From Desulfuromonas sp. (GTDB lineage Bacteria; Desulfobacterota; Desulfuromonadia; Desulfuromonadales; BM515): 44,598 nt of DNA. The translations under genes and the position numbers were made by a program. Positions 1-18,589 of the stretch are shown piece by piece. The notes under the pieces were generated by a model. It searched no databases. It was not told the DNA's origin and saw only the letters and a program-made list of their open reading frames with translations. Numbering within the stretch: the first letter of the stretch is position 1; every line of letters starts with the position of its first letter. The stretch is from positions 1-44,598 of the forward strand of contig PKUF01000032.1 of assembly GCA_002869635.1 (NCBI GenBank). Direction: 5' to 3'.

Positions 1-3000
1 GAAGCGTATCGCCAGCTGTTCACCACTGAAGACGGTGCGGGTCGCACCGTTGAAGCTGAACTTCACGGCACGCATGGTCCGCTTGCCAACGGTGACCGGG
101 GTCGAAACAAGCGCCCCGCCATTTGGTGCAGCAAAAGGCTGGAAACCACCACTGTAAAGACCCAGTTCACAGGTCATATCTGCCGCAACATTGTCGTTGT
201 CAACATACAGGGTAATTGAGCTCACATAAATAGTCGTGTCACCGCTGTAGACCTTCGGCGTGACAAAAACGACCGGGTAGCTTGCTGAACTGCTTGCCGT
301 GGTAGTGGTAAAGTCGGTGGCCAGCATAGTGACCGCCCCTCCAGAGACCGCGCCGCTGGCGTAGTAGGTCACATCGGTCTTCGGCACCGACTTAAGACCT
401 TCAGGAGCGGCCAGCAGGGTACTCAGGTTACTATCGCTATTGCCGGCACTGTCTTTGGCGCGGACCGCAAAGGTGTAGGGCGTCCCATCGGTCAATCCGG
501 TGACACGATAGCCATGCTGATCCTTGGTGTTGGCCTGAGGCGTACCGTAATCGATACTGCCGACATCCGACCAGAAGATCTCGTAGGTAATCGGCATGGA
601 ATGGTCTTCCGCCGGCGTCCACTGGAGATAAACCGAGCCGGTATCATCAAGCACCGTCGCCCTGTCAATCCCGTACCACGCCGGCGAGCCGACCAGAACC
701 GGAGCGAGCGTGTCGGCGGGTACCGTCATATTAACACTATCCGAGCCCCCGAAATTTCCAGCCTCATCGTAAGTACGCAGAGCAAAGGAGTAGTTCACCC
801 CCGGGATAAGGTTACGGGCAATCGCTTCCTGAGGCTCTCCCTTGCGACTGACCGTCGGCGGACCGCCGAAGAAGTTATCGGAACGAGTAAAGTCCGTTGC
901 CAGCGCTGCCGCCGGGTAGCGACTATCTCCGTCACTTCCCATGCGAATATCGTAACGATAGGCCGTCCCGTCATCGGTGCCATCATCACCCGGGGCCGTC
1001 CAGGTAATCTTCAGCGACCGCGGCTCAGGGCCTGCCGCAATGGCAAGACTCGAGGATGCGATAGTCACATCAGCAGGAGCTACGGTGTCTCCATACCACC
1101 CCGGAGTAAAGGGTGCGCGGGCATGGCAGAGAACGGTAGAACAAGTTCCATCGGTAGAACCAATGTTGAATGCCGCACTTGAATCAGCGGCCCCCCAAAG
1201 ATCTTCAGCCCTACGGCCTTCGCTGGTTACGAAGACCTCTGCCGGGAGGTTTGCTGCCGTACCATGATCCGAGTCATTCGTCACCGCCGCATGACAGTGC
1301 TCACAGAGATCCTTCTGCTTACCCGCCGAGGCGGCATCATCGAGTAGTTCCTGCAGAGTGAGGCTGTAAATCTTCTCACTCAAAACGGTCATATGCAGGG
1401 TGTGAACACCATCGTCGTTCTCACTGTTGGCGTTACTGTCGTCAGGCCAGAAGTTCGACTCATACACCCCACTTGTGCCACCACCGTGGCAGATGTTGCA
1501 GCCGCCCACCGGATCGTTGGCCCCATCAACCGACTCACGGGCGATATCCGCCACAGCGAAGGTGTGGGTTCCGGAAGTGCCGGGGTCTCCGTCATCGGAG
1601 TGACAGGCGGCACACCAGGCCCGACCGCCCGATTCCGTGACGCCGGTCGCCCCGTTGTCGTTCATCGTGACGCTACCGTTACGGTGATTGGCAACCGAGG
1701 GATAGGCATGACAGTCTTCGCAAGCATTCGCCGCCCCACCTACCGAGTTGTGGCTGTCACCACGGGTTGAGGTTCCATCGCCAGGATAGGCCGCGTAGTG
1801 GCTGGTCCCGGTACGCCATGCCCCGAACTGACCGTGGCAGTTGTTACACTCGGTGCCGTCACTGTTGACGGCCGTCGTGCTCCAAAGACGGGTCCAGTTG
1901 CCCGCGTCCGCATGGCAGCTGCTCAGTGTCCCGGTGGGGGCGCAAGTCGGCGTCGCGGCATCGGCAAAGGTGACATCTGCGGCGAAATTAACACTCGGCG
2001 CGACCGCATTCCAGCTATTGGTATAGGTGCCATCAATATGGTTCGTTGAGGGCGTCGTCGTATGGCAGTTCGTACAGTTCCCTGCCAACAGTGTCTCATC
2101 ATGCGTCGTTGATGAGATCGTCGGGGTGATGGCATGCAGACCGGTGGCCGGCAAAGCACCCGCGGTATCAGCGACCCGCCCACTGACATGGCAATCGACA
2201 CAGGCCAAAGAACCGCCAGGAGTCCAGTCTCCACTGGTGTTGGCCACATGACAGGTAATAGTACAAGTCTGACTCCCCGAGACATAGGTCACAGAGTTGT
2301 CGACGCTGCCGTTTTTGTGGCCGCTGTGGGCACCGGTTGCGGCACTGGCCCCGTGGCAATCAGCGCAATCACCCGCGACATAGGTATTGTTATCAATATG
2401 CGGGGTATGCTTGGCGCTGGCGATCGGCCAGCCCCCTTGATCAAGGGAGCGAGCCGCCCCTGCCAGAGCGGTCGCGTTATGACAATCGGCACAGTTCAGG
2501 CCTGCCGCATCCATCCAGCCGTTACCCGCCACGGTGTAGTGACAGGCGTTGCTGCAGGTGGTGTCACCGGTGTTGTAGGTGGTGAGGCTGCTGGCAACGG
2601 TAATGGTGGCGACATTGGGGCCACCGAGATGATCGTCCGCCGCCCCGAGCGCACCGTCGTGCCCGTGGCAATCCGCACAGCCACCACCGACAAAGGTGCT
2701 GTTGGCCATATGGATGTCGTGCTCACCGGCGTTGGGACCGACCGAGATGGAGAGATCGGCTTCGCCGCCGGCATCGAGCAGCTTCGTACTGCTATGGCAA
2801 TCGGCACAGGCCAAGCTACCCGTGGTCCAGTCGTCGTTGGTGTTGGCCCAGTGACAACTGTTATCGCAGGTCGCATTGGCGGCAGAGTAGGTGACGATAT
2901 CGTCGATTGCGCCATTACGGTGGGTCGCGTGGGCGCCGGTATCGGCGCTGGCGCCATGACAGTCAGCACAGTCTCCCGCCACATAGGTGTTCTGGTTGAT

Positions 3001-6000
3001 GTGGATGGTGTGCTTGTTGCCGGTCGGCGGGAACATGTTGTTCTGCGTCAGCAGCTTGGCCCCCGAGGCGTGACAGTCGGTGCAGCTGTCGCCCCCGAGA
3101 TTCCCGGCGGCCCATTCGCTATCATCGGAATCGTGACAGCCATTGGCCGTGCTGCAGTTGATGTTGGTGAAATCGGCCCCGCTGTAATTAAGGGCTGTCG
3201 TCAAATAGGTGCCACCGAAATCGACGTTGGTATCGTTGTGCTTGGCATCCCCCGGTCCCGTATGGGGGTGGCAGGCGCCACAGCCACCGGCAAAGAGACT
3301 TGAGCCGGTGTGCAGAGCGTGAATGACACTGCTCTCATTGGTCCCGGTATGATCGCGGCCACTGCTGTTGTGACAGTCGGTGCAGTTGGCCGACGGGCCA
3401 TTCTGCTCAAGGCGGGTCCAGAGTGTCGTCTCATCAAACTCATGCCCCTCATCGGCGGTGCCATCGTTGGAAACATGGCAGGCCGAACAACCGACCGTTG
3501 CGCCGTTGTCGGTGAAGCTGATCTGGTTGTTGATCTGGATGTTGGCGTCGCGATGATCGACCGAGAAGTCATAGTAGGTCGTATCGCCGTTTTTGTAGGT
3601 ATGGCAGGTGTAGCAGGGGTCGGTTCCATCATGGCTGGCCGCGACCTGGCCATCGGCATCGCCGCTGGTGTTGGTCTGATGCCGCGCCACAACCCCGGAC
3701 GTAAACCCGGTGGCGAAGGTGCCGTGGCAGTTGCCGCACTCGGTTCCGTCGCTGTTCGCCGCCGTCGTACTCCACTGGCGAGCCCAGGCCCCGGAATCGG
3801 CGTGACAGCTGGCATTGCAGCCGGTCGCTGCGGCATAGGCGCTGACATTGGCGTTGAAGGTGAACGTCGCCGTTCCAGAATTATTCAAGGTGCCGGTCTT
3901 ATTAGCATCGGACGGCGAGGCGGCGTCATGGCAGTTGATGCAGTTCCCCGTCTGCAGGGTATCGTCGTGGGTTGCCGCCGAGATCGTCGGGGTGATGGCA
4001 TGCAGCCCCGAGGCAGGCAGGTTGCCGTTGCCGCCGACATAGGTTCCGGCATGACAGTCGCGACAGACCAGCGCTCCACCGGCGGTCCAGTCGCCGCTGG
4101 TATCGGCGAGGTGGCAGGTGATGCTGCAGGTCTGGGACAGACTGACGTAAGTCACGGTGTCGTCTACGGTCCCATCCTTGTGACTGACATGGTTACCGGT
4201 GTCAGAATTGGTTCCATGACAGTCGGCGCAGTCACCCGCGACATAGAAGTTGTTATCGATGTGCTGGGTGTGCTTGGCGCTGGTCGGCGGATAGGCATCA
4301 AGGGCCGCACTCAGTTTTGCCGCCGCGTGACAATCGGCACAAATCAGGCTGCCGCCATTCCAGTCACGGCCGCTGACCACCGTATGGCAGTTGTTGGTAC
4401 AGGTCCCGTCACCGGCACTGGCCAGAAGGGTGTAAGCGGTCACATCGTTGATCACGGTCACGTTGCCGTCGTTGTGCGCCGCAAGGTGATTGCTCACCGA
4501 GGAACCGACACCGTGACAGGCGTCGCAGGCGTCCACTCCAACCGTCCCGACATAGGCACTGTTGCCAAGGTGGGCGGTATGAGCATTACTGCTCGGCGGA
4601 TAGCCCCCTTGATCGAGAAGCTTGCCGGTGGCGGCGTGACAATCGCTACATGTGGCGAGGCTGTCGGCCACCCATGAGCCTTCATCGGAATCGTGGCAAC
4701 CGTTGGCCGTGCTGCAGTTGGTGTTGGCGAAATCGGCCCCGCTGTAATTGAGAGCGGTCGTCAGGTAGGTGCCGCCAAAATCGACCGTGTTGTTTTCGTG
4801 CAGTGTCCCGCCAGGTCCTGAGTCGGCGGGGTGACAGGCGCCGCAGCCCGGCGACATGGGCGATCCGGTGTGGTAGGTATGAACCGCCTCGCTTTCGTTG
4901 GTGCCGGTGTGGTCGCGGCTGTTCAGAACATGACAACCGTTGCAGTTGCCTGTCGGGCCTCCGACGATCATCTCCCGCGACCAGCGATCAACCCCGCCAT
5001 CAGCGATGTCATCCTTATTGGAGTCGATGAAGCCGTATTCACCGTCCGCCGTCCCGTAGGGACCGGCGCCGGAGTCGTGACAACCGTTGCAGGTGTTCAC
5101 CGAGTCATCGTTGTCAACGAAGAGCATGTCGTCGTTGAGCTGGATCGCCCCATCACGATGCTTCGTCGCGAAATCGTAGGGGACCGTCTGCCCTTGCTTG
5201 TAGGTATGGCACATATAGCACTTTTCACCGGCCACCCCGGTATGCCCCGCTTCCACCTGAGCATCCCCGGCATGGCGGGCGATCACGCCCCCAGCCCATC
5301 CCTGATCAAAGTCGCCGTGACAGTTGCCGCACTCGGTGTAGTCGCTGTTCTTGGCGGTTGTACTCCACTTGCGGCTCCAGGCGCCGCCATCGTCGTGACA
5401 GCTCACCAGGCCGTTGCCGGGGGCGCAGGTTGAGGGCGCGCCGTTGCTGTAGTTCAGATCGGTCGCTATCGCCGCCTGGGTCGCGGTCGGTGCTCCCCCG
5501 GCAATATGCGCCGCAGGCAGGTTGTTGGTGACATCGATACCGCTGTGGCAGGTGGTACAGGTCCCGCTCGGCACCGCTTCGCCGCGGGTGATCTGGAAGC
5601 TGATGTCGTGGGTGTTGCCGGAGACGGTCAGGGTTCCACTGTGCAGACCGCTGATCGGAGCAGTCCCGATCTTGCCGGCGGTGTGACACTCAACGCAATC
5701 GAGACTGCTGGCGTCGGTCCAGGTTCCGGTTGCATCAACATCGTGGCAGGCGTTGGTGCAGGTCACACCATTGGTGCTGACCAGGTCGATGCTGGCATCC
5801 CCGGCCTGCACCGTGCCGTTGATATGAGTGGCAACCGCTGCAGAGGAACTGGTTGTGTCAAGGTGGCAGTCACCGCAACCCGCTACATAATTGCTGTTGC
5901 CCACATGACCCGTATGGCGGCCGGTTCCCGGCGGCAGTGCGTGACAGATTGAGCAGTTCGCTGAAGCCGTTCCCCAGACCGGACTTTGGACAGCAGAACC

Positions 6001-9000
6001 TTTGCCGTCGTTATGGCAGGTGGTCGTGGTGCACTGGCCATAGGTGACATCAGTATAGTCCGAAAGGCTGGTGGTGTAGGCGAAGCCACCGTTGAGATCG
6101 ACCGCCCCGGTCAGGTGACCGTTGTCACCACTGTTATCCGGATGGCAACTGATGCAGGCGACGGTCAAGCCAAAGGTGCCGCTCGCCCCCATATGAGCAG
6201 TATGGCTCCCCGGCGTCCCTTTCCCCGTATCGGGGTCGCTGCTGCTGTGACAGAAATCACAGTTCTGACTATTAGGCGTTCCCCAGGTTGCCACATTGCT
6301 CAAGCCAGAGGGGTTATGGCAGCCGGCGTTACTACAGGTATCCGTCCCATCATCCCAAGTCGTGACAATCACCGTCGCCTCATCTTGCGAGGCGTTGCCG
6401 CGATCGTCAAGGACTGCTCCGTCGTTGGTCGCATTGAGCGCCCAAGAGTCATGATCATCAATATGAGTCCGCGGGAAGACATCACCCGCGTTGTCATCGT
6501 GACAGGTGGTGCAGACCTTACCGCTGTCGAAATGTTTGTTGTGCGTCGCACTGACTGCTTCGCTGTTACCATTGGCCACGTTGCCAACACTGGCAGGCGT
6601 ATCACTCCAATAATGACAGGAACTGCAGTTCAAACCGTCGCTGTCGGTCCAGTTGCCATCGTCGCCACCGGAATAGTGGCAGGCGTTGGCACAGGTCGTG
6701 TTGGTGATCCCTACAGCCAAGCTGACAGACGAGTCTGAGTGGGAGAGTGTGAATGTCGATGCTCCGGGATGACAGACCTCGCAATCGAACTTATCTTCGG
6801 ATTCATCATGACTGGAAACGTTAACGTGCGCCTCGTGCACCCCAGCCTTGCCCACCGGACGATCGTCGCTTGCTGTCGGCGGATTACCGTGGCAATCATT
6901 ACAGGCGGTTCCGCCCTGTGGCATGAAACCACCATATACATTGGCCTCGGTATGGCCATGACAAGTAAGACAGTTTTCATCTTCGTGATGGGCGCCACCC
7001 ACTGCGACATTATTATGAGTTGTCGCCGTATGACAGGTGGCGCAGATATCATCACTATTTACGCCATCAGCTTCATCAAAGGAGCCCGCGCCTGTAAATG
7101 CTGTAAAATCGACGCTTCCGGCAAAATCGGCTTTGACCTCGCCAATCATCGCAACATTACTACCCACGCCGTGCGGATCATGGCATTCAAGACACAGTTT
7201 ACTGAAATCAGTCCTCTTCTGCCCTGTGTAGTCAGTATCCGTATTCGCATGGGTCTGGACATCAACGGTCGCCTCAGCATTACGTGAACCACCGCTGGTA
7301 TGGCAGGCTTCACAACTAAATCCACCGATAAGAAGTGTCACCGTGGCGCCGCCGACGTGATCACTTTCTCCATTGATAGAACTTAGATGGCAGTCGGTAC
7401 ACACCTTGTTTGCCGCCGGATTACCGGTCTCAGCATAATTACCGCTAGTTAGGTTGTGACCGATCGTCGCCGCCAGCGCCTTATCCGGGGCACTCACCGC
7501 CGATGAAGAGGCATCGGAGTATGTGGTCACCGATGCTCCGATGTGGCAAGTCCGGCAGTCAACACTTGAGGGGTTGCCCCAAACCGGCGAGATATCCCAC
7601 ACCGCGGTGTTTTCAACCCCATGACAAGCATCACAGGATGCTGCAAGCGACAAGGTCGTGACCTGACCATCAACATGACCACTATGTGAAGCTGTGTTGG
7701 CACCGGCCCCGTGACAGTCATCACAGCTTACATTTGCTCCTGCTGTATCGAGATGCACGGTGTGCGAATTGGTTGTCAAGGTGGCCGACGTCACACCATG
7801 GCAGCTGCCACAGGCAGCACCGCCGACACCATCATCCCAGTCTGCGGTGTTGCCTAAATCGGCAGGGTCGTGGCAGTAGACCGAACAGGTTCCCGTTGTT
7901 GCATCGTAGTCGACACCAACATCGTTGGTCGCAAGGGCGGTTTTCAATGTCGAACCGCTCGAGGCATAGACAATGTCGACCAGCGTGTTGACATGATTTC
8001 CACCTGAGGCCGGGCTGAGAATATTGACCAGATGCGCTCCAGCTGACACGGTCGAATTATCAAGCGCCGTGCTGTTGTGGCAGATACTGCAATCATTCCC
8101 ATACGTATCAAGATGTTTACCATGAGCTGGGGTATTCCCCCGGTTCGACATGGTTACACTGGTATTACCGTGACAGGTCGAGCACTCTCCGACCTGCCCA
8201 ATCAACGTATCCTTACCGTTATCCCAGGTCGGCGAGGGGATTGTTCCTGTGTAATCACGAGTCGGTCCATCAGCTGTACGAGGCGCACCATTGCCGTGAC
8301 AATAGAGGTTTTCACACTGATCAGTTCCGGTGTTGTAGGTTCCCGTTGAACTCGGATCGACGACAGGATCAAAGGCGACATCCCTGTAACCCGTTGCATA
8401 AGGCGTTGTTGCTGACTGCTGATGGGTCGGAACGTAGTTGGCGTGACACGGCTCACAAGCGTAGACTCCTGGGCCAAAAATGTAGTCTGTCGCAGCCCCT
8501 TGCGTCGTACCGCCTGCCGCATGAGCATTATGCGGTGTTACACTTTCGTCCTTTTGGTAGGTCACGCTCGCGTGCCGGTAGTTCCAGGTTGCATCGATAT
8601 AGGCGTAGCCTCCATCAACCCCTGAACCGATTCGGTCACCACGGTTATCGATGTAAGGAGGGAAGCCGTGGCAATCACCGCAGGTCGCAGCACTGGCATC
8701 ATTCTGAAAACTATAGCTCCAAGCCGGTCCGTTGTGGAGATGGCATGCCGTACAATCATCCGTCGACGAGTGAAAGCTTCCCCCTTTGGGAATCGTCTCT
8801 GCTTCACCGTGGCAGGCTTCGCAATAACCAAACGCCGTAAGATTGCTGTTGTCTTTCCAGACTTCAGTCCTGTTCGGCAGTGAGAAGATCGCTGAATTGC
8901 TGTAGATGTAGTCTGTTCCGGAAAAACTATAACCGGTAAAACTGACCATCGAGTCTGAGATCGGATTGTATGTCTGTGGTCGTAGAACATAGTAAAAAGG

Positions 9001-9948
9001 CACATTATTATTGTAGGAATGAGCGCTGTGGCAGTCTGTACAGCCGAGAAAGGTCCCACCATCGGCTGATTTTCCGTGGATGAGATAAGTGTGGCAGGAC
9101 TGACAGAGGCTTGAGCGTTTATTGGCTTCTGCCTCTGTAAAATCGGCCGACGTGACTGAGTTAAAATCACGGGGGCCATCTGTCCTCAGGATATGGCCAT
9201 CACCCGCATTTAAACCTGCAGCCATATACGAGTCTTTCCCGTCAACTGTTGATGAATCTGAATCTGTGTAATGCAATCCGTGACACGTGCTACATGAGAC
9301 CGTTGTGCCAATTAACGCCATCTCACCACTAAAGGTTGCAGGAACAACATATTTATCCAGTGTTTCACCTGAATTTATGGCATTGGCTGTCGTTTCATAA
9401 TCATCGATTAACGGATGGGTCAAAAGGGCATGATCACTATTGCCAATATTCCATAGTGCGTGACAATCCTTGCACATTTCGTCATTCAAATTTTCATTTC
9501 GCAGAATCCTCGTATCTGCTGAATCGTAGGTTTTATGGGGGTCATGACAGACGCTACAGTTAACAGATCTGTTTGAAATATTATAACTACTGCTATAAAG
9601 AGCCACACTCGGAGGTGCCGCTCCTGCGGCAGGCACATCGTTATTGACCCCCCAAAGGTGTGACACCTGATTCGTTGCACTCGGATTATTTCCCAATGCA
9701 TTACTCGCATCGTCGGCCGTCATCTTCCCTGTAGGAACATGCCCTGTACTTCCGTCCGAGTATGTCGTTGATCCAACGGCCCCCGTATCATGACAACTCA
9801 GACAGAGGTTCAGTGCAATTTCATCAAGTGCCAATCCGGCGCGATGACAGCTTTTGCAATCAAAATAATGAACATCGCGCGCCTGTGCTAACGATCCACA
9901 CAAGAGAATAACAATCAACACGAACAATTGACGAAGACGAGAAGCCAT
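1..9948 (-). CDS. Giant multiheme c-type cytochrome with C-terminal fibronectin-III-like region (3' end truncated by window edge)
   Basis: Reverse-strand frame from ATG at 9948 (RBS GGGAGG, signal peptide MASRLRQLFVLIVILLCGSLAQA) reads with no stop found to position 1. Hand count: ~61 CxxCH, 9 CxxxCH, 4 CxxxxCH, 2 CX5CH, 2 CX8CH. All minus ORFs listed in this interval are in the other two frames. The pattern matches the Geobacter CxxxxCH...CxxCH repeat family (TIGR01904, from memory). Confidence 0.93.
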   Translation of the reverse strand, partial: MASRLRQLFVLIVILLCGSLAQARDVHYFDCKSCHRAGLALDEIALNLCLSCHDTGAVGSTTYSDGSTGHVPTGKMTADDASNALGNNPSATNQVSHLWGVNNDVPAAGAAPPSVALYSSSYNISNRSVNCSVCHDPHKTYDSADTRILRNENLNDEMCKDCHALWNIGNSDHALLTHPLIDDYETTANAINSGETLDKYVVPATFSGEMALIGTTVSCSTCHGLHYTDSDSSTVDGKDSYMAAGLNAGDGHILRTDGPRDFNSVTSADFTEAEANKRSSLCQSCHTYLIHGKSADGGTFLGCTDCHSAHSYNNNVPFYYVLRPQTYNPISDSMVSFTGYSFSGTDYIYSNSAIFSLPNRTEVWKDNSNLTAFGYCEACHGEAETIPKGGSFHSSTDDCTACHLHNGPAWSYSFQNDASAATCGDCHGFPPYIDNRGDRIGSGVDGGYAYIDATWNYRHASVTYQKDESVTPHNAHAAGGTTQGAATDYIFGPGVYACEPCHANYVPTHQQSATTPYATGYRDVAFDPVVDPSSTGTYNTGTDQCENLYCHGNGAPRTADGPTRDYTGTIPSPTWDNGKDTLIGQVGECSTCHGNTSVTMSNRGNTPAHGKHLDTYGNDCSICHNSTALDNSTVSAGAHLVNILSPASGGNHVNTLVDIVYASSGSTLKTALATNDVGVDYDATTGTCSVYCHDPADLGNTADWDDGVGGAACGSCHGVTSATLTTNSHTVHLDTAGANVSCDDCHGAGANTASHSGHVDGQVTTLSLAASCDACHGVENTAVWDISPVWGNPSSVDCRTCHIGASVTTYSDASSSAVSAPDKALAATIGHNLTSGNYAETGNPAANKVCTDCHLSSINGESDHVGGATVTLLIGGFSCEACHTSGGSRNAEATVDVQTHANTDTDYTGQKRTDFSKLCLECHDPHGVGSNVAMIGEVKADFAGSVDFTAFTGAGSFDEADGVNSDDICATCHTATTHNNVAVGGAHHEDENCLTCHGHTEANVYGGFMPQGGTACNDCHGNPPTASDDRPVGKAGVHEAHVNVSSHDESEDKFDCEVCHPGASTFTLSHSDSSVSLAVGITNTTCANACHYSGGDDGNWTDSDGLNCSSCHYWSDTPASVGNVANGNSEAVSATHNKHFDSGKVCTTCHDDNAGDVFPRTHIDDHDSWALNATNDGAVLDDRGNASQDEATVIVTTWDDGTDTCSNAGCHNPSGLSNVATWGTPNSQNCDFCHSSSDPDTGKGTPGSHTAHMGASGTFGLTVACISCHPDNSGDNGHLTGAVDLNGGFAYTTSLSDYTDVTYGQCTTTTCHNDGKGSAVQSPVWGTASANCSICHALPPGTGRHTGHVGNSNYVAGCGDCHLDTTSSSAAVATHINGTVQAGDASIDLVSTNGVTCTNACHDVDATGTWTDASSLDCVECHTAGKIGTAPISGLHSGTLTVSGNTHDISFQITRGEAVPSGTCTTCHSGIDVTNNLPAAHIAGGAPTATQAAIATDLNYSNGAPSTCAPGNGLVSCHDDGGAWSRKWSTTAKNSDYTECGNCHGDFDQGWAGGVIARHAGDAQVEAGHTGVAGEKCYMCHTYKQGQTVPYDFATKHRDGAIQLNDDMLFVDNDDSVNTCNGCHDSGAGPYGTADGEYGFIDSNKDDIADGGVDRWSREMIVGGPTGNCNGCHVLNSRDHTGTNESEAVHTYHTGSPMSPGCGACHPADSGPGGTLHENNTVDFGGTYLTTALNYSGADFANTNCSTANGCHDSDEGSWVADSLATCSDCHAATGKLLDQGGYPPSSNAHTAHLGNSAYVGTVGVDACDACHGVGSSVSNHLAAHNDGNVTVINDVTAYTLLASAGDGTCTNNCHTVVSGRDWNGGSLICADCHAAAKLSAALDAYPPTSAKHTQHIDNNFYVAGDCADCHGTNSDTGNHVSHKDGTVDDTVTYVSLSQTCSITCHLADTSGDWTAGGALVCRDCHAGTYVGGNGNLPASGLHAITPTISAATHDDTLQTGNCINCHDAASPSDANKTGTLNNSGTATFTFNANVSAYAAATGCNASCHADSGAWARQWSTTAANSDGTECGNCHGTFATGFTSGVVARHQTNTSGDADGQVAASHDGTDPCYTCHTYKNGDTTYYDFSVDHRDANIQINNQISFTDNGATVGCSACHVSNDGTADEGHEFDETTLWTRLEQNGPSANCTDCHNSSGRDHTGTNESSVIHALHTGSSLFAGGCGACHPHTGPGDAKHNDTNVDFGGTYLTTALNYSGADFTNINCSTANGCHDSDDSEWAAGNLGGDSCTDCHASGAKLLTQNNMFPPTGNKHTIHINQNTYVAGDCADCHGASADTGAHATHRNGAIDDIVTYSAANATCDNSCHWANTNDDWTTGSLACADCHSSTKLLDAGGEADLSISVGPNAGEHDIHMANSTFVGGGCADCHGHDGALGAADDHLGGPNVATITVASSLTTYNTGDTTCSNACHYTVAGNGWMDAAGLNCADCHNATALAGAARSLDQGGWPIASAKHTPHIDNNTYVAGDCADCHGASAATGAHSGHKNGSVDNSVTYVSGSQTCTITCHVANTSGDWTPGGSLACVDCHVSGRVADTAGALPATGLHAITPTISSTTHDETLLAGNCTNCHTTTPSTNHIDGTYTNSWNAVAPSVNFAADVTFADAATPTCAPTGTLSSCHADAGNWTRLWSTTAVNSDGTECNNCHGQFGAWRTGTSHYAAYPGDGTSTRGDSHNSVGGAANACEDCHAYPSVANHRNGSVTMNDNGATGVTESGGRAWCAACHSDDGDPGTSGTHTFAVADIARESVDGANDPVGGCNICHGGGTSGVYESNFWPDDSNANSENDDGVHTLHMTVLSEKIYSLTLQELLDDAASAGKQKDLCEHCHAAVTNDSDHGTAANLPAEVFVTSEGRRAEDLWGAADSSAAFNIGSTDGTCSTVLCHARAPFTPGWYGDTVAPADVTIASSSLAIAAGPEPRSLKITWTAPGDDGTDDGTAYRYDIRMGSDGDSRYPAAALATDFTRSDNFFGGPPTVSRKGEPQEAIARNLIPGVNYSFALRTYDEAGNFGGSDSVNMTVPADTLAPVLVGSPAWYGIDRATVLDDTGSVYLQWTPAEDHSMPITYEIFWSDVGSIDYGTPQANTKDQHGYRVTGLTDGTPYTFAVRAKDSAGNSDSNLSTLLAAPEGLKSVPKTDVTYYASGAVSGGAVTMLATDFTTTTASSSASYPVVFVTPKVYSGDTTIYVSSITLYVDNDNVAADMTCELGLYSGGFQPFAAPNGGALVSTPVTVGKRTMRAVKFSFNGATRTVFSGEQLAIRF

Positions 9949-10051
9949 TTGATCCTCCCAAAGAAGGCTTTCATTCACTGTTGCCAACTAATAAAATCTA
10001 ATCTTTGTGGCAGTTAAATCTGCATAACTAGTTTTTTTTAATGTTACACAC

Positions 10052-10080
10052 AAAAAAGAGGCCCCCTAGAGGGCGCTCTT
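10052..10080 (-). terminator. Rho-independent terminator after the tetraheme cytochrome gene
   Basis: Minus strand GAGCGCCCTCTAGGGGGCCTC followed by TTTTTT; lies just past the stop of the 10089-10934 CDS. Confidence 0.65.
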
Positions 10081-10088
10081 CATTTTTA

Positions 10089-10934
10089 TTATTTTACGTG
10101 ACAGGCCTTACAAAGGGCACTGCCAGTGTTCGGTGTAATAAGAAACGGCGTGTAAACAGTGTAAGCGGGATCACCTGCGTTTGTTCCGTATTTACCGTAA
10201 TCGACATGCGGATCATGACAACTGGAACATTCGACCCTGTTTGTCGCCCCGAAGAAACGTACATTTTTACCTGCCGCATTCACCGTCGTATCAAGCCCCG
10301 ACGGGTCGTCTAAATAAGCCGCATCATAACTGAATGAGATGGGATGGTCATCTGACAGATCACCACCAACGTTATAAATCATGTTAAACAATCTGTCACG
10401 TGATGAGCCGATCCAGGCTCCTGGAGCGAGGGGGTCTGGAAAACCTATCTCCTTGATCGTTACCCACTGATCATTCATACGAATTCGCTCTGTCGGCTCT
10501 GTGGCATCTAACTGTGGCGTTCTATTACTTAAATTGATGACCCGGTTCACCGCGATCGTCCCGTCATGACAAGAGAGACAGAGAAGCGACTCTGTACTAA
10601 CGGCCCGCGCGGTATCTCCTGCCGTCGCGCCGAGTGTTGAACTATCGTAATGCGTGAAATAGCCTGGTGCCGCAATATTTGCAGCGAGCGGATTTGAGGA
10701 CGCGGTATCGTCCATCTCGCGGTTCCAGAGCGGGCCATCAAGGCTTCCACCGTGTGGTGTATGACAAAAGATACAGATTTCATCTTCATCACTTGCATTA
10801 TACGGTGATGACGTGGTCTTGCTCATGTTGTGCATTGTGTTAGCAATCCCCGCAACTCCCTTGGCCATGGCACTTAGTGGTAATACCGCCAAGACAATCA
10901 ACATTCCCATTACCGCAACTATGCTTCTCATCAT
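10089..10934 (-). CDS. Secreted tetraheme c-type cytochrome
   Basis: Signal peptide MMRSIVAVMGMLIVLAVLPLSAMA; heme motifs CIFCH, CLSCH, CSSCH, CKACH. Start placed at MMRS inside the 293-aa ORF. Confidence 0.9.
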   Translation of the reverse strand: MMRSIVAVMGMLIVLAVLPLSAMAKGVAGIANTMHNMSKTTSSPYNASDEDEICIFCHTPHGGSLDGPLWNREMDDTASSNPLAANIAAPGYFTHYDSSTLGATAGDTARAVSTESLLCLSCHDGTIAVNRVINLSNRTPQLDATEPTERIRMNDQWVTIKEIGFPDPLAPGAWIGSSRDRLFNMIYNVGGDLSDDHPISFSYDAAYLDDPSGLDTTVNAAGKNVRFFGATNRVECSSCHDPHVDYGKYGTNAGDPAYTVYTPFLITPNTGSALCKACHVK

Positions 10935-10975
10935 ACTTCGTTCCCCAGAATAGATGTTTCTACCACCCAATCAGA

Positions 10976-13864
10976 CTAGTCAAGGAGATGGACCAATTGC
11001 TCAATTTCGACGTAGCCGGAGGCGCCACTCACCATGGTTGCCAACAGGGCGCGGGCCTGCTTTGCAGCTTCCTTATAATCTTTTATTTCTATCGCCGCCC
11101 TGACAGCCCCTGTTTCTCCCGCTGCCAGAAAAGTATCAATTTGATCAACCTTCTCAACCAAAGAGCCCCTGAAGCTCTCTACAATTGCACTGCCATAGGA
11201 ACGGACGTAGCGGATCTCGCCGGCAGAATTCCCGACAAGGAGATCTTTTCCGCTTTTCCCGTCGAGATCAACGGAAAAGAGCCGCAATCGATTCCCCAGC
11301 GAATAAGTTCCACTGGTCGATTTGCCGTTGTTGTCATTAATCAGCTCATCGGCAACCGAAAGAACCGCAACCGCCTTATAATTCCCGGAAACCGACTCGT
11401 ACACATAGATGTGTTCGTCAGCTGCAAGCAAAAGCTCTGCGGCATTATCGCCATCCCAGTCAACGAAAAAGGGCGCAACGGGTGAGCTGATTCGGAAAAG
11501 GACAACGGGAGCGGAAAGTTCCGGCGCAGCATCTGTCCCAAGATTGGTACAGAGCGACACCGTGCCGTCTGTCGCACCAACAAGCAGGTCTTTGTCGTTA
11601 TCGTTGTCAATATCATAAATAACCGGCGCAGCCGCCCCTGAAACCATAAGGGGGCCTTCCACAGTCGTCACCACAGACCCTGTGTAATCAGTACCGTTGG
11701 CTCCAGAAGTCGCCAGATAGAGGTGAACCGTTCCATCCTCAGCACCTATCACAAAATCGTTCAAGCGATCATTGTTCCAATCGACAACAACAGGCGTGGC
11801 GCCGGGAAGTAACGGTAACCCAGATATCTCTGTCAGCGCCCCAAAGTAAAGGTCTCCCTCAAGAGATTCAGCACCAGCGGCGACGCTAATTCTACCGGAG
11901 AGCTCTCCGGTCACCAGATCAAGCAGACCATCTCCGTTCAAATCAACAAGATAAGGGACTGCATCTCCAGAGAGAGAGATCTTGGTCGCATCCACCTCCA
12001 GCGGCCTCGCCTTGAGATCTTCCGGCGAGATTGCAGGGCGCAGCGCCACAGAGACAGAAAGGTTCTCGTTCTCACCAACCGTAATCTGTTTCACGACGGG
12101 CTCGAAGCCACTCTTTACCAGAACAAGAGAAGTCTGTCCCGGCGTGAAGTCTTGAATTTCCAGAGGGGTCACCCCTGCATAACTACCGTAGTAACCATAA
12201 TTCCCCCCGAAGTAGACCTTGACCCCCGGCATATTCGCATCAACAGACACCAATGTGGTATCATAGACGAACATTTGCGCATCGCTATAGGACGTCGTCC
12301 CATGCTCATCAACAGCAAGAACCCGAAGGAAATAGGCCTCTCCATCCATCAAGGCTGCATATCCCGTCAGATCGGCCAGAGCGGTCTCTCTCAGCTCACT
12401 AAGTTCTGACTCAGCGACAACCTGCTCAAAGGACGGGTCCGAAGAGACCTCGACCATGTACTGAACCGCGTCATAGGGATCGGGGTCGACTGATGCATCC
12501 CAAGAGATGAGATCTGCACCGTCAACGACAGCAGCGGCTACAGGACGCAGCAGAGAAGGGGCAGAAGGAGCTTCCGGCGTGGCATTGACATAGAACGACT
12601 CCAACCCTGACCAACCGGAGACTTCCTCAGCATCCGCCGCCTGAACCCGCCATGTAATCTGGGCATTTTCAGGCAAAGACACATCCACCTGAACATCCGT
12701 GTTCCCCTCGCCCTCAGGCTGCTCCAAATACTCCACAACGAGCGTGTCATCCGCGTAAACCTGCACCTGATACGTCAGAACATCGCCATCAGCATCAACG
12801 GCATTTTCTATTTGCAGCAGCGGCGTTGCCGTCGAAACCTCGACATTATCAGTCGGACTATACGGAACCGGAATTCCAGGCTTAACATTTGTAACCGGCG
12901 GGGTGGGGTTTATTGCACCATCGACGCCAAAAACTTCAACACGCCCCCCGTCCGAAGAGACAAAGAGGCGATGGGTCAGACCATCGTAGGCAACAGCACG
13001 AGGCATCGCCAGCTGTCCGACCTCAATCCCCTGCGTCCCATACGTCAACAACAAACCACCTGAGACCGCAGGTGCTGACATCACCCGTACCTGCCCCAAC
13101 ATCGTGTCAAGAAAATAGGCCCTTTCATTTCCAGCCTTGCCACCAAATGCGATCCCCCCGAACCACGCCAGAGAAGGCGTTCCAAAGGACGTCGTCATCG
13201 AAAGTGAACGCTTATAGTTCCCTACCATGTCATATACGACCACCTTTGCCGGGGTCCGGCCATAGGTCTGAACATCTGCAACGTACACTTCTTTATTGAC
13301 ATCATCGATCGCCAAGGCCCACACGGAGATCAACGTCGAAAGAGTTGTCCCTTTTGCCCCAATACTGTAGGCACATTCACTCCCGTCAGGGCCATACACC
13401 CGAACCTTCAAGACCGACTGATCAACAACATAGACATATCCATCGGCATCAACCTTTATCATGTCCACATTGCCGAATTCCCCTTCACCACTTCCCAGAG
13501 AGCCAACAAGGGAACCGGAATCCAGGTCCAAAACCCGAACGATCGTGCGATCACCGACATAAAGACGAGAACGGCCTGAATCCACGGCCATCGCCCCCGC
13601 ACTCAGAAAAGCCGAAGAGTAAGTCTCTGCAAGCTCTCCATACATGTCAAAGCGATAGACAACATGATTCAGCGAGTCCGCGACATACAGATTCCCCTCG
13701 GAATCGACATCAAGCGCACTGACAAACGCCAACCGATCACTACTGATCCGCCCCAGAGAGGCCAAGTCCGGGACCGTTGCCGCCTGAACCGGCATATGCC
13801 AAATGACACTCACCAGCAGCACAATCGCCGCCAAAAGGCCAGTCTTCCGAATTTGCAATTCCAT
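10976..13864 (-). CDS. Secreted NHL-repeat beta-propeller protein with FN3-like, PEGA and FG-GAP/VCBS-type repeats
   Basis: N-terminal signal peptide; NHL-like 'ALDVDSEGNLYVADSLNHVVYRFD'; PEGA-like 'PGVKVYFGGNYGYYGSYAGVTPLEIQDFTPGQTSLVLVKSGFEP'; FG-GAP-like 'VDLNGDGLLDLVTGELSG', 'VDWNNDRLNDFVIGAEDG', 'YDIDNDNDKDLLVGATDG'. Confidence 0.85.
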   Translation of the reverse strand: MELQIRKTGLLAAIVLLVSVIWHMPVQAATVPDLASLGRISSDRLAFVSALDVDSEGNLYVADSLNHVVYRFDMYGELAETYSSAFLSAGAMAVDSGRSRLYVGDRTIVRVLDLDSGSLVGSLGSGEGEFGNVDMIKVDADGYVYVVDQSVLKVRVYGPDGSECAYSIGAKGTTLSTLISVWALAIDDVNKEVYVADVQTYGRTPAKVVVYDMVGNYKRSLSMTTSFGTPSLAWFGGIAFGGKAGNERAYFLDTMLGQVRVMSAPAVSGGLLLTYGTQGIEVGQLAMPRAVAYDGLTHRLFVSSDGGRVEVFGVDGAINPTPPVTNVKPGIPVPYSPTDNVEVSTATPLLQIENAVDADGDVLTYQVQVYADDTLVVEYLEQPEGEGNTDVQVDVSLPENAQITWRVQAADAEEVSGWSGLESFYVNATPEAPSAPSLLRPVAAAVVDGADLISWDASVDPDPYDAVQYMVEVSSDPSFEQVVAESELSELRETALADLTGYAALMDGEAYFLRVLAVDEHGTTSYSDAQMFVYDTTLVSVDANMPGVKVYFGGNYGYYGSYAGVTPLEIQDFTPGQTSLVLVKSGFEPVVKQITVGENENLSVSVALRPAISPEDLKARPLEVDATKISLSGDAVPYLVDLNGDGLLDLVTGELSGRISVAAGAESLEGDLYFGALTEISGLPLLPGATPVVVDWNNDRLNDFVIGAEDGTVHLYLATSGANGTDYTGSVVTTVEGPLMVSGAAAPVIYDIDNDNDKDLLVGATDGTVSLCTNLGTDAAPELSAPVVLFRISSPVAPFFVDWDGDNAAELLLAADEHIYVYESVSGNYKAVAVLSVADELINDNNGKSTSGTYSLGNRLRLFSVDLDGKSGKDLLVGNSAGEIRYVRSYGSAIVESFRGSLVEKVDQIDTFLAAGETGAVRAAIEIKDYKEAAKQARALLATMVSGASGYVEIEQLVHLLD

Positions 13865-14206
13865 ATTTCGCCTCCTAATAGGTACGGATGGTTCCTTTAT
13901 TTATCAAGCTTCATGTTCAAATTCGATGTAGGACAGAGGTGTCCTCACGCGGAGTAGATGCAACCATGGTACCAAATCAACACAACCACTCATCGCTCCT
14001 TGAACTCACCTCGACAAACAGCCCCCGACATCTATCCTTTTCGCCAAAATTGCGGGGTTTCCAACAAAGAGCATCGCTCTTCAAACTGTCACCCTTGCCC
14101 CCGCTTCACCTTGTGCTTTGACGGGGCCTGTGTTATTTAACGTGCGCACAGAATAGCATCATTTCTCGTTGTGTCACTTTCTCATCCTTATAAACGAGCA
14201 TCGACC

Positions 14207-15622
14207 ATGTCCCCTCACAAATCCTTGCTCCGCCATATTCCCGGAGTCGATCGCCTTCTGCAAAGCCCCCTGCTGCAAAACCTCGCCAGTGAGATCCCAA
14301 CCACCCTCATCACTGATGCGGCTCGCAATGTTACCGCCACCCTCCGGGAGAGAATACTCGCCGGCGAACTCCATACCGCCCCATCCGTTGAGGAGATCTG
14401 CGTCCAAACCCATCGCGAAGCCTTGCTGCGGGCTCGCCCCTCGCTACGCCCAGTCCTTAATGCCACCGGAACCCTGCTCCACACCAATCTCGGTCGCGCA
14501 CCCTTAAGCGATGCTGCTCTGTCGGCGATGGAGTCGGTCGCCCGTTCCTACTCCAATCTTGAGCTTGACTTGGAGAGCGGCGAACGCGGCCACCGCTACA
14601 GTCATATCGAGGCACTCCTTTGCCGCCTCACCGGCGCCGAGGCCGCGACAGTGGTCAACAACAACGCCGGAGCGGTCATGCTCGCCCTCACGGCTCTGGC
14701 ACAAGGGAGAGAAGCGATCGTCTCGCGAGGCGAACTTGTTGAGATCGGAGGGGCTTTTCGGGTTCCCGATGTCATGGCCGCGGGGGGTGTTTTGTTGCAC
14801 GAAATCGGCACGACCAACAAGACCCATCTTCGCGACTACCGTGCCGCCATCAACGAAAAGACCGGACTCCTTCTTAAAGTTCATACCAGCAATTACCGCA
14901 TCGTCGGGTTCACCGCCGCCGTTTCGGCGAGCGAGATGGTCTCTCTCGCTCGCGAGCATAACCTGCCGGTCCTTGAAGATCTCGGCAGCGGGATGCTCAT
15001 GGACCTCTCTCCCTTCGGGCTTCCTAAGGAACCAACGGTTGCCGAAGCGGTCGGCGCCGGGATTGACGTGGTCACCTTCAGTGGCGACAAACTCCTTGGC
15101 GGACCTCAGGCCGGTCTCATTGTCGGGCGCAAAAACGCTGTGGAGAAAATCCGCAAACACCCCTTCGCTCGCGCCCTGCGCAGTGACAAACTAACCCTGG
15201 CAGCGTTGGAGGCGACCCTACGTCACTACCTTGACCCGGCTGATGCACTGCGCGAGATCCCGGTTCTGAGGATGCTTGCTGTCACGCCGCAGGAGCTGCG
15301 CCGCTCTTGCCGCCGGCTGCAGCGGCGCCTTTCTCAACTGGCCGAGCAACTACACTGTGAGATCGTCCCCGAGCCGTCGGCTGTCGGTGGTGGCGCCCTA
15401 CCGCTGACGTAGCTTCCCGGAGAGGCACTGGCGCTGCGACCACAAACTATCTCTGTCGACACCCTCGCCACCCGCCTGCGGCTCGGAAGCCCGGCGGTGG
15501 TCGGGCGACGCCGCGATGGCCTCTTCATCATCAACCCTCGCACCTTGCGTCAGGACGAGGAGGCAACGCTCTGCGCCGCCATCGCCTCGGCCCTCACTCT
15601 GGAAGCAACGTCCGCATCATGA
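14207..15622 (+). CDS. selA: L-seryl-tRNA(Sec) selenium transferase interrupted by an in-frame amber codon at 15410-15412 (possible pseudogene)
   Basis: SelA-type sequence with PLP-lysine region 'TFSGDKLLGGPQAGLIVGRK'. After TAG the same frame continues 'LPGEALALRPQTISVDTLATRLRLGSPAVVGRRRDGLFIINPRTLRQDEEATLCAAIASALTLEATSAS' to TGA at 15620-15622, overlapping the selB ATG. Confidence 0.9.
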
Positions 15623-17547
15623 GCAAAACAACAGAACGCCATCTGATCATCGGCACCGCGGGCCACGTCGATCACGGCAAGACGACCCTGATCCGTGCCT
15701 TGACCGGCGCCGAGACCGATCGCCTCAAAGAAGAGAAGGAACGCGGGATCTCTATCGATCTCGGCTTCGCCCCGTTCCGGCTCCCCAAAGGGGGAATGGC
15801 CGGTATCGTCGACGTCCCTGGGCACGAACGCTTTATCCATAATATGCTCGCTGGCGTCGGCGGCATCGACATGGTCCTGCTCCTGCTCGATGTCATGGAG
15901 GGGGTGATGCCTCAGACGAGAGAGCATCTCGCCATCCTTAAGCTGCTCGATGTACAACGTGGCATCGTCGTATTGAGCAAATGCGATCTTGCCGATCCTG
16001 ACTGGGTCGATCTGGTGGAAGAAGAAATCCGCGAAGAGGTCGCCGAAACCTTCCTTAAAGACGCTCCTTTCTGCCGTGTCTCGGCCTTGACCGGCGACGG
16101 TATCCCCGATCTCATCGCGACGATTGAGGAGGTCGCCCGAGCCATCACCCCCAAGGATGCCGACGGCCCCTTGCGCCTTCCTATCGACCGCCACTTCACT
16201 GTTGCCGGGTTCGGCACGGTGGTGACCGGCACACTCCTTTCGGGACGGATCCGCACAGGCGAGACGGTGGAGATGCTCCCTCCGGGAGAGACTGTACGGG
16301 TGCGCGAGCTGCAGGTGCATGGCAAGAAAGTCGAGGAGGCCAGCGCTGGTCAGCGCGCCGCCCTCAACCTCGTCGGTCTCGACCGCGAACGGATTCAACG
16401 CGGCGCCGTGGTTGGAACCCCCGGCATCTTCGAGATGACCGAACGCTTCGACGCCCGCCTTACCCTGCTCCCCGAGGCTCCGCGCCCCCTCAAATTCCGC
16501 GACCCGGTCCATCTCTACCTCGGCACCGCCCGGGTGGTGGGGATGGTCGCCCTGCTCGACCGGGACATTCTTGAACCGGGGGAGAGCGCCATCGTGCAGA
16601 TTCACCTCGACCGACCGCTGGTGGCACATCGTCAGGACCGCTTCATCATCCGCTCCTATTCGCCGATGACGACCATCGGCGGCGGGGTGGTGGTCGATCC
16701 AGCCCCAGTCAAACATAAGCGTTTCCGCGATGACGTCATGGCCTCCCTCAAAGAGTTGGAGTCGGGGGAGAAGTCATTCCTGCTGCAAAAACTCGCCGCC
16801 CAGCCCTGCCTGCGCCTTAAGGAGTTCGAACAACTTGCCGCCATGGGACGGGAACGGATCGGCGACCACCTTGAAGCACTGCAGAACGAAGGACGGGTCG
16901 CCCTGCTCGCCGACCAGTGGGTTGTCGTCGAGACCTTGCGTAGCTGGCGCCGCAGACTGATCGAGGAGGTCGAGCAGTTCCACAAAGCGAATCCGCTTCT
17001 CCTCGGCATCCCCCGCGCAACCCTTAAAGGGGCGTTGCCTGCCGCCCTTCTCCCCAAAGGGTTCGATGCCCTCCTTGCCGCCGCTCATGAGGAAAACGAT
17101 CTGGTCGCCGGGACAGAAAGCGTCCACCTCCCTGGCTTCTCTCCCCAACCGGAAGGGGAGCAGGCTCGCCTCATTGAACAGATTGAAAATGCGTATCGGC
17201 AGGACGGGGTGTTGGTCAAGAACCGGCAGGAGATGCTCGACCGACTCGGTCTTGATGCCGCAGCGAGCGACGAATGCTTCGCCTACCTCTTTGCCACTGG
17301 GCGGCTGGTGCGGCTCAGCGAAGAGAGCTTTCTGCACCGCGACGCTTATAACGCCGCACTCTCCGCCCTGATCGACCACTTCAACCAACAGAAAACCCTG
17401 ACTCTGGCGGAGTTTCGCGACCGCATCGGCAGCGCCCGCAAGCAAACACAGGCGCTGCTCGAGTACTGGGACAGTCTCAAATATACCCTGCGTCAGGGAG
17501 ACGCCCGGGTCGGGTGGAAGCTCCCCACCGCCCCACCAGCTTCATGA
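15619..17547 (+). CDS. selB: Selenocysteine-specific translation elongation factor
   Basis: GTAGHVDHGKTTLIRALTG..TDRLKEEKERGISIDLGFA..DVPGHERFIHNMLAG; C-terminal winged-helix region. Confidence 0.95.
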   Translation: MSKTTERHLIIGTAGHVDHGKTTLIRALTGAETDRLKEEKERGISIDLGFAPFRLPKGGMAGIVDVPGHERFIHNMLAGVGGIDMVLLLLDVMEGVMPQTREHLAILKLLDVQRGIVVLSKCDLADPDWVDLVEEEIREEVAETFLKDAPFCRVSALTGDGIPDLIATIEEVARAITPKDADGPLRLPIDRHFTVAGFGTVVTGTLLSGRIRTGETVEMLPPGETVRVRELQVHGKKVEEASAGQRAALNLVGLDRERIQRGAVVGTPGIFEMTERFDARLTLLPEAPRPLKFRDPVHLYLGTARVVGMVALLDRDILEPGESAIVQIHLDRPLVAHRQDRFIIRSYSPMTTIGGGVVVDPAPVKHKRFRDDVMASLKELESGEKSFLLQKLAAQPCLRLKEFEQLAAMGRERIGDHLEALQNEGRVALLADQWVVVETLRSWRRRLIEEVEQFHKANPLLLGIPRATLKGALPAALLPKGFDALLAAAHEENDLVAGTESVHLPGFSPQPEGEQARLIEQIENAYRQDGVLVKNRQEMLDRLGLDAAASDECFAYLFATGRLVRLSEESFLHRDAYNAALSALIDHFNQQKTLTLAEFRDRIGSARKQTQALLEYWDSLKYTLRQGDARVGWKLPTAPPAS

Positions 17548-17554
17548 GGATATG

Positions 17555-18589
17555 ATGACACAAAAACTTCGACTGACCGCCCTCTCCCGCAGCAGCGGCT
17601 GAGCCGCAAAACTGGCCCCCGGGCCACTGGCGCAGGTTCTGCGTCATCTACCAGAGAATCGCGACCCGAACCTTCTATCGGCCGCCATCCCTTTTGCCGA
17701 CGCCGGGATCTACCGCCTCGACGCGACAACCGCCCTTGTGCAATCTGTCGACTTTTTCACCCCGGTCGTCGACTCCCCGCGCCTCTTCGGGCGGATCGCC
17801 GCCGCTAACGCCCTCTCCGACATCTATGCGGTGGGGGCACGGCCGTTGACCGCCATGAATCTCGTCGGTTTCCCCCGCTGCCTCGCACAGGAAATCCTTA
17901 CCGAAATCCTCTTGGGTGGCAGCGAAGCGATGGCCGAGGCCGGTGCCACGCTGGTCGGTGGCCACACGGTGGAGGATGACGAGCCGAAATACGGCCTCTC
18001 GGTCACCGGTCTGGTCGATCCGACGATGATGGTCTCCACCGTTGGCGCCTGTCCCGGCGACCATCTCTACCTCACAAAACCACTCGGCACCGGCATCCTC
18101 GCCACCGCTCTCAAAGGAGAGGTTCTTGCCGAGAAGGATATCCCCGACGCCATCGCCGGGATGGCAACCCTCAATCGCACCGCCTGCGCTGCCATGCTTG
18201 AGATCGGGGTCAACGCCTGCACCGACATCACCGGCTTTGCCCTTCTCGGACACGCACTGGAGATGGCCGAGGCGAGTGACGTCTCCTTCGAGCTCAACGG
18301 CGCCAGCCTGCCAGCCTATCCGCACAGCTTCGAAATGGCCGCCATCGGCCTTGTCCCCGAGGGGAGCTACCGCAATCGGGAGTTTTATCGAGAGCGGGTG
18401 CTGAACTGGGAGGAGATAGCGCCAGAGATGATCGACCTGCTCGCTGACCCCCAAACCTCAGGGGGACTGCTCATGGCCGTGGCGCCAGAAAAGTCGGCCG
18501 CGCTTGAAGCACGACTGCAGCAGACCGGTGGGGGATGGAAGGTCGGGGTCGTTAAAGATGGGAAACCAGGGACAATGCAACTCACCTAA
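17555..18589 (+). CDS. selD: Selenide, water dikinase; selenoprotein with UGA (Sec) at 17600-17602
   Basis: ATG at 17555 gives MTQKLRLTALSRSSG-U-AAKLAPGPLAQVL, continuing in frame into the listed ORF 17738-18589. Sec is codon 16, at the known SelD Cys/Sec position. Confidence 0.93.
17612..17627 (+). promoter_or_regulatory. Candidate bacterial SECIS stem-loop downstream of the selD UGA
   Basis: GGCCC-CC-GGGCC inverted repeat beginning 11 nt after UGA; folding not computed. Confidence 0.4.

Follow-up and report, generated by a model that had tools for sequence, protein, structure and literature searches.

A giant multiheme c-type cytochrome gene of Desulfuromonas next to an OmcE-like gene and its possible role in extracellular electron relay

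Results

The stretch of DNA analyzed here (44,598 nucleotides; hereafter, the window) is the entire contig C85 of a 138-contig, 2.39-Mb, 74%-complete genome bin of Desulfuromonas sp. An ORF call with open ends allowed indicated a minus-strand frame at positions 1 to 9987 (3,329 codons, 3'-open), in which the gene for a giant multiheme c-type cytochrome (1 to 9948) starts with an ATG at 9948, preceded by a ribosome-binding-like GGGAGG (9954 to 9959, minus strand), and runs for 3,316 codons without a stop down to base 1. This agrees with the frame described in an initial annotation of this DNA, which had also pointed out that the gene was missing from the ORF list; that list was one of closed ORFs, and the gene did not appear in it because the contig holds no stop for it. 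Upstream on the same strand are two genes not described in that annotation, one for an OmcE-like tetraheme cytochrome (10089 to 10970, a 293-amino-acid frame with the true start probably near 10934) and one for a secreted beta-propeller (NHL/FG-GAP) protein with a PEGA domain (10976 to 13864). Genes resembling selA, selB, and selD of the selenocysteine machinery lie beside these cytochrome genes at 14171 to 18589.

A pattern count on the translation of the giant gave 61 CxxCH, 9 Cx3CH, 4 Cx4CH, 2 Cx5CH, and 2 Cx8CH motifs, 78 in total, and the earlier hand count of 61 canonical and 17 variant motifs was thus exact. As is characteristic of a c-type multiheme cytochrome, the motifs are present far beyond chance, the number of CxxCH in 300 shuffles of the same composition having a mean of 0.45 and a maximum of 4, and there are enough histidines to serve as distal ligands, 100 potential ones being located outside the motifs. 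Outside the motifs, there are only two cysteines, Cys17 of the signal peptide and Cys3260 of a C-terminal beta domain.

The giant begins with a probable Sec signal peptide (MASRLRQLFVLIVILLCGSLAQA; 9880 to 9948, minus strand, as are all features of the giant below), which was read from the sequence and has no clear lipobox; a hydrophobic leader is also present in other rows of the N-terminal alignment A1. It is followed by the N-terminal heme domain that defines the family (residues about 25–400; 8749 to 9876), in which CxxCH motifs and histidines are invariant across the 20–28 sequences of alignments A1 and A3. The window protein matched the N-terminal profile with an E value of 2e-132, a value to be read with the window sequence itself being a row of the profile alignment A1. 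The structural model predicted for this domain was of low confidence (pLDDT 55), and a fold search against the PDB with this model gave no match. The heme array as a whole (1123 to 9876) has its first motif near residue 34 and its last at residue 2942, with one motif per about 37–40 residues, and occupies about 90% of the known chain. Domain searches confirmed its expected cytochrome character, with TIGR01904 (NCBIfam) in five stretches above the cutoff and matches to four Pfam families (PF14522, PF22113, PF14537, and PF09698), so that TIGR01904, cytochrome c7, and MtrC/MtrF-domain-like stretches are found along the array. A part of the array (residues about 1500–2700; 1849 to 5451) is internally repeated at offsets of about 520 and 621 residues, with about 68–74% identity in DNA, and coincides with about 630 residues that the window protein has in excess of its closest relative, described below.

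The initial annotation had given one motif per ~42 residues; this is to be corrected, as residues about 2957–3316 are heme-free. This part consists of two fibronectin type III (fn3)-like domains (residues about 2990–3172; 433 to 979), with a PF00041 match at residues 3104–3172, and a beta-rich domain (residues about 3220–3316; 1 to 291), which was delineated in alignment A2 and ends at the contig edge. A predicted model of residues 2941–3316 matched fn3 tandems in the PDB, and the strands of the beta-rich domain were predicted in it with modest confidence. These domains are most likely spacers or attachment points.

To define the family, we used the N-terminal profile at E ≤ 1e-50, a single-sequence scan of contigs having found nothing. 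The profile matched in 40 of the 136 genomes of the order. Named relatives are Desulfuromonadales metagenome-assembled genomes, Malonomonas, Geothermobacter, Geoalkalibacter, Desulfuromonas, and Geobacteraceae. When 247 genomes sampled from the phylum were scanned, no strong match was found outside the class. The closest relative is a complete ORF of 3,789 amino acids in genome G022, with 55 CxxCH motifs and 70 CH motifs overall, and a second close one is a contig-cut ORF in G002, which belongs to the same genus as G022. Single chains of 3,100–4,064 amino acids are found in several genera, and complete ones carry 70 motifs in the above 3,789 amino acids and 76 in 4,059. In other genomes, the family is split into two ORFs, the first of 1,300–2,800 amino acids with up to 77 motifs and the second with its own leader and an end collinear with the tail of the single chains; in these genomes, the first protein (71–77 motifs) stops before the fn3 part. 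Geothermobacter hydrogeniphilus, which is available as an isolate and carries the module described below, has a first ORF with 71 motifs at locus L090. On a contig of another genome (G306:C150:197907-238579; L135–L137), seven relatives of the N-terminal domain are arranged in tandem over about 41 kb, one of which has a length of 3,724 amino acids with only 24 CH motifs, representing length without hemes.

Comparison with these relatives indicated selection on the heme motifs. Over residues 1–1,200 of the window protein, the G022 relative keeps all aligned motif residues (87/87) and 38 of the 40 non-motif histidines, compared with 663 of the 1,095 remaining residues (61%). Between G022 and G002, dN/dS was about 0.19 over 3,603 codons, with no stop, and ranged from 0.12 to 0.31 in every block of 600 codons, indicating purifying selection and, therefore, a maintained gene. 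That selection acts on the motifs strongly, though indirectly, indicates their use. Taken together, the ORF in the window is best explained as the single-chain form of a family of giant secreted cytochromes of Desulfuromonadales.

The missing C-terminal end could be estimated from relatives. The G022 protein has 1,118 residues with 13 further motifs beyond the point where the window protein stops, and contig C48 of the same genome as the window carries a homologous C-terminal piece of 1,200 amino acids with 13 motifs at its start. If the window gene ends like G022 and the C48 tail, the complete protein is probably about 4,400 amino acids long with about 91 motifs, and the C-terminal tail typical of the family (NCHR...GWNxVTPW), to which the fn3 and beta part leads, would fall beyond the contig end. 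The type of split form with 71 motifs in the first ORF has 22 more in the examined part of the second, which adds up to 93 and comes close to our prediction of 91. The left end of C48 was rejected as a direct continuation of the window, as the overlap of 80 residues is only 69% identical and hence not the same DNA. The C48 tail stems either from a close paralogue or from a duplication of the beta domain in the same gene. The genome has two strong N-terminal domains (C85 and C48) and two tails (C48 and C72), and the C85 giant and the C48 tail are both closest to one G022 gene; therefore, one gene may contain the beta domain twice. Between the tail (3–3602) and the N-terminus of another giant (12503–16048) on C48 (L014) lie a pair of sensor kinase and NtrC-type regulator genes, a permease-like gene, and uvrC.

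That the length of the ORF is an artefact of a chimera or of misjoined repeats is very improbable, even with an incomplete draft bin, a contig end inside the gene, and internal repeats, because ORFs with the same layout, collinear over thousands of residues, are present in independent genomes, the repeats are too diverged for a simple repeat collapse, and all motifs are in frame.

As for the upstream genes, a phmmer search against the PDB matched the tetraheme protein with the tetraheme cytochrome 9YUQ (E 7.6e-20) and the filament subunit of OmcE (7TFS; E 2.9e-19) as its best solved relatives. It retains the four CxxCH motifs of OmcE and the four histidines outside them, the N-terminal one among them, which are conserved at 97–100% in an alignment of 30 sequences. 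This likeness is that of the neighboring gene and not of the giant, and the neighbor is a candidate filament former. The order of beta-propeller/PEGA, OmcE-like, and giant genes on one strand was found at about 33 loci in many genera (27 after removal of duplicates by hand and 6 further ones). The linkage of the giant and OmcE-like genes is strong but not obligatory, because tandem giant paralogues occur without an adjacent OmcE-like gene (G022, G021, G029, and G014) and the genomes of genus g15 (G014, G030, and G050) have the propeller and OmcE-like genes with the giant elsewhere in the genome. In the tandem array of G306 and in Malonomonas, the propeller gene is present and the OmcE-like gene is absent.

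A terminator-like hairpin with a T-run (10061 to 10074, minus strand), a consensus match only, separates the giant from the tetraheme gene and would allow an excess of the tetraheme protein over the giant; similar hairpins accompany several single-chain relatives, and most split loci show a weak one or none. An NtrC-like response regulator gene is located near or upstream of the propeller gene at six loci (L063, L071, L118, L119, L120, and L122), with a sensor kinase beside it wherever the examined stretch reaches far enough, and the NtrC-like protein is a possible regulator of the module. At two of these loci (L119, 9413–10243; L120, 9441–10265), a gene for a secreted protein (GRVIGRIQVEGVDTYRGVASLWD...) is located beside a propeller/OmcE-like site that is not followed by a giant.

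Discussion

The initial annotation was right in describing a giant cytochrome, which is a real, conserved, and secreted c-type multiheme protein, and none of the relatives examined has as many motifs as the partial window protein (the next being 77 and 76). Its heme-richness has precedents, as large size alone is already known from published proteins with 85 (PMC5566968) and 86 motifs (PMC9012536, PMC12133095). Desulfuromonas acetexigens, a related bacterium, has high-molecular-weight cytochromes whose heme-binding motifs number up to 86 and which are expressed on electrodes and iron oxides, and under electrode growth it also expresses an OmcE homologue (PMC12133095). These cytochromes are comparable to the giant in motif number, a likeness by description and not by sequence, and the accessible portion of that account describes no gene block with an OmcE-like gene. 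The PCC3 extracellular cytochromes of Fe(II) oxidizers (up to 85 motifs) are likewise very large secreted heme arrays with repeats (PMC5566968) but differ in having a clustered porin and periplasmic partner and 22–39 amino acids per heme; no genes for such a porin or periplasmic cytochrome were recognized from 10 to 44.6 kb of the window, with the downstream side of the giant falling beyond the end of the contig; nor did the loci of its relatives, read by eye, show an adjacent porin. The S-layer multiheme cytochromes of ANME (up to 86 motifs) are also giant surface heme arrays with non-heme domains (PMC9012536), although they are archaeal and have S-layer domains, which were not detected in the giant. 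The 38-heme and fn3-bearing 24-heme cytochromes of Geoalkalibacter ferrihydriticus look like the split two-gene form (PMC12016550), but they are two shorter proteins, likened by layout and not by homology.

Other candidate identities were rejected or uninformative. The PF22113 matches are local stretches in a 78-motif array and do not make the giant an MtrC/MtrF decaheme cytochrome, and no MtrA/MtrB neighbors were seen in an ORF survey of the window. The full-length giant gave nothing at E 1e-3 in a phmmer search against the PDB, and hence no overall match to the solved OmcS or OmcZ chains, and the N-terminal profile matched OmcS over a local heme stretch only. With the GSu_C4xC__C2xCH/TIGR01904 cytochromes of Geobacter, the giant shares only a heme-motif domain, which is uninformative on the whole architecture.

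The gene linkage suggests that the giant and the OmcE-like protein jointly carry respiratory electrons out of the cell, and the conserved module leads us to propose, with a probability of roughly 0.6, that the secreted giant functions with OmcE-type filaments as an electron relay. After export by Sec, the giant would carry about 78 covalent hemes (about 91 when complete) and be retained in the matrix or at the outer cell surface, where the fn3 and beta domains suggest attachment. With one heme per about 40 residues, electrons could pass along neighboring, close-packed, and probably bis-His hemes, and the giant may in this way be a single-chain conductor, as the initial annotation had proposed. 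The relay would have an outer-membrane conduit at one end, for which no gene, porin or other, was recognized next to the giant, and OmcE-type filaments or an external acceptor at the other. It could serve the filaments as a base, cap, or parallel path, a role proposed because its gene is linked to the OmcE-like gene. The hairpin that parts the two genes in the window and the exceptions to the linkage count against this proposal.

A more specific form of this relay, which we put forward as doubtful, is a two-part nanowire, in which the giant is a dedicated base, cap, or branch electrically linking OmcE-type filaments with the cell or a mineral, and the propeller protein assists in its assembly. 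The giant would then be one chain with about 90 hemes, possibly tens of nanometers long, and, if this is true, the complete giant would exceed the motif count of any single protein in the published work compared.

It is similarly unlikely, in our estimation, that the giant is an independent single-chain conduit or electron store (capacitor) at the surface and that its adjacency to the OmcE-like gene reflects shared regulation only. The tandem paralogues without an OmcE-like neighbor and the distance between the two genes in the three g15 genomes are consistent with such independence, but the fixed order of the trio at so many loci and in many genera is more than shared regulation usually needs. 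We consider it quite improbable that the giant is mainly adhesin-like, fixing cells to minerals, electrodes, or partner cells by the fn3 and beta domains and the propeller protein, with the hemes for contact. Although tandem fn3 and beta domains, a propeller/PEGA neighbor, and the discussion of adhesion for the Geoalkalibacter pair (PMC12016550) fit this role, fn3 domains are common as spacers, nearly all of the known chain is heme array, and the first protein of the split genomes ends before the fn3 part. An electron relay with OmcE-type filaments is the reading we prefer.

In the literature searched, outside of which lie key filament papers, we found no account of the family, of its occurrence in fused and split forms, of its expansion through repeats, or of its linkage to an OmcE-like gene, and an earlier description of the linkage is therefore possible. 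The way in which cytochrome filaments attach to the cell and to one another is still an open question, and this gene block provides a testable candidate for the junction. The block, an OmcE-like gene followed by a giant array, occurs in both single-chain and split forms in an order with culturable members. Furthermore, long-range electron transfer within a chain could be studied across the family, whose heme arrays form a natural series ranging from about 17 to about 90 motifs.
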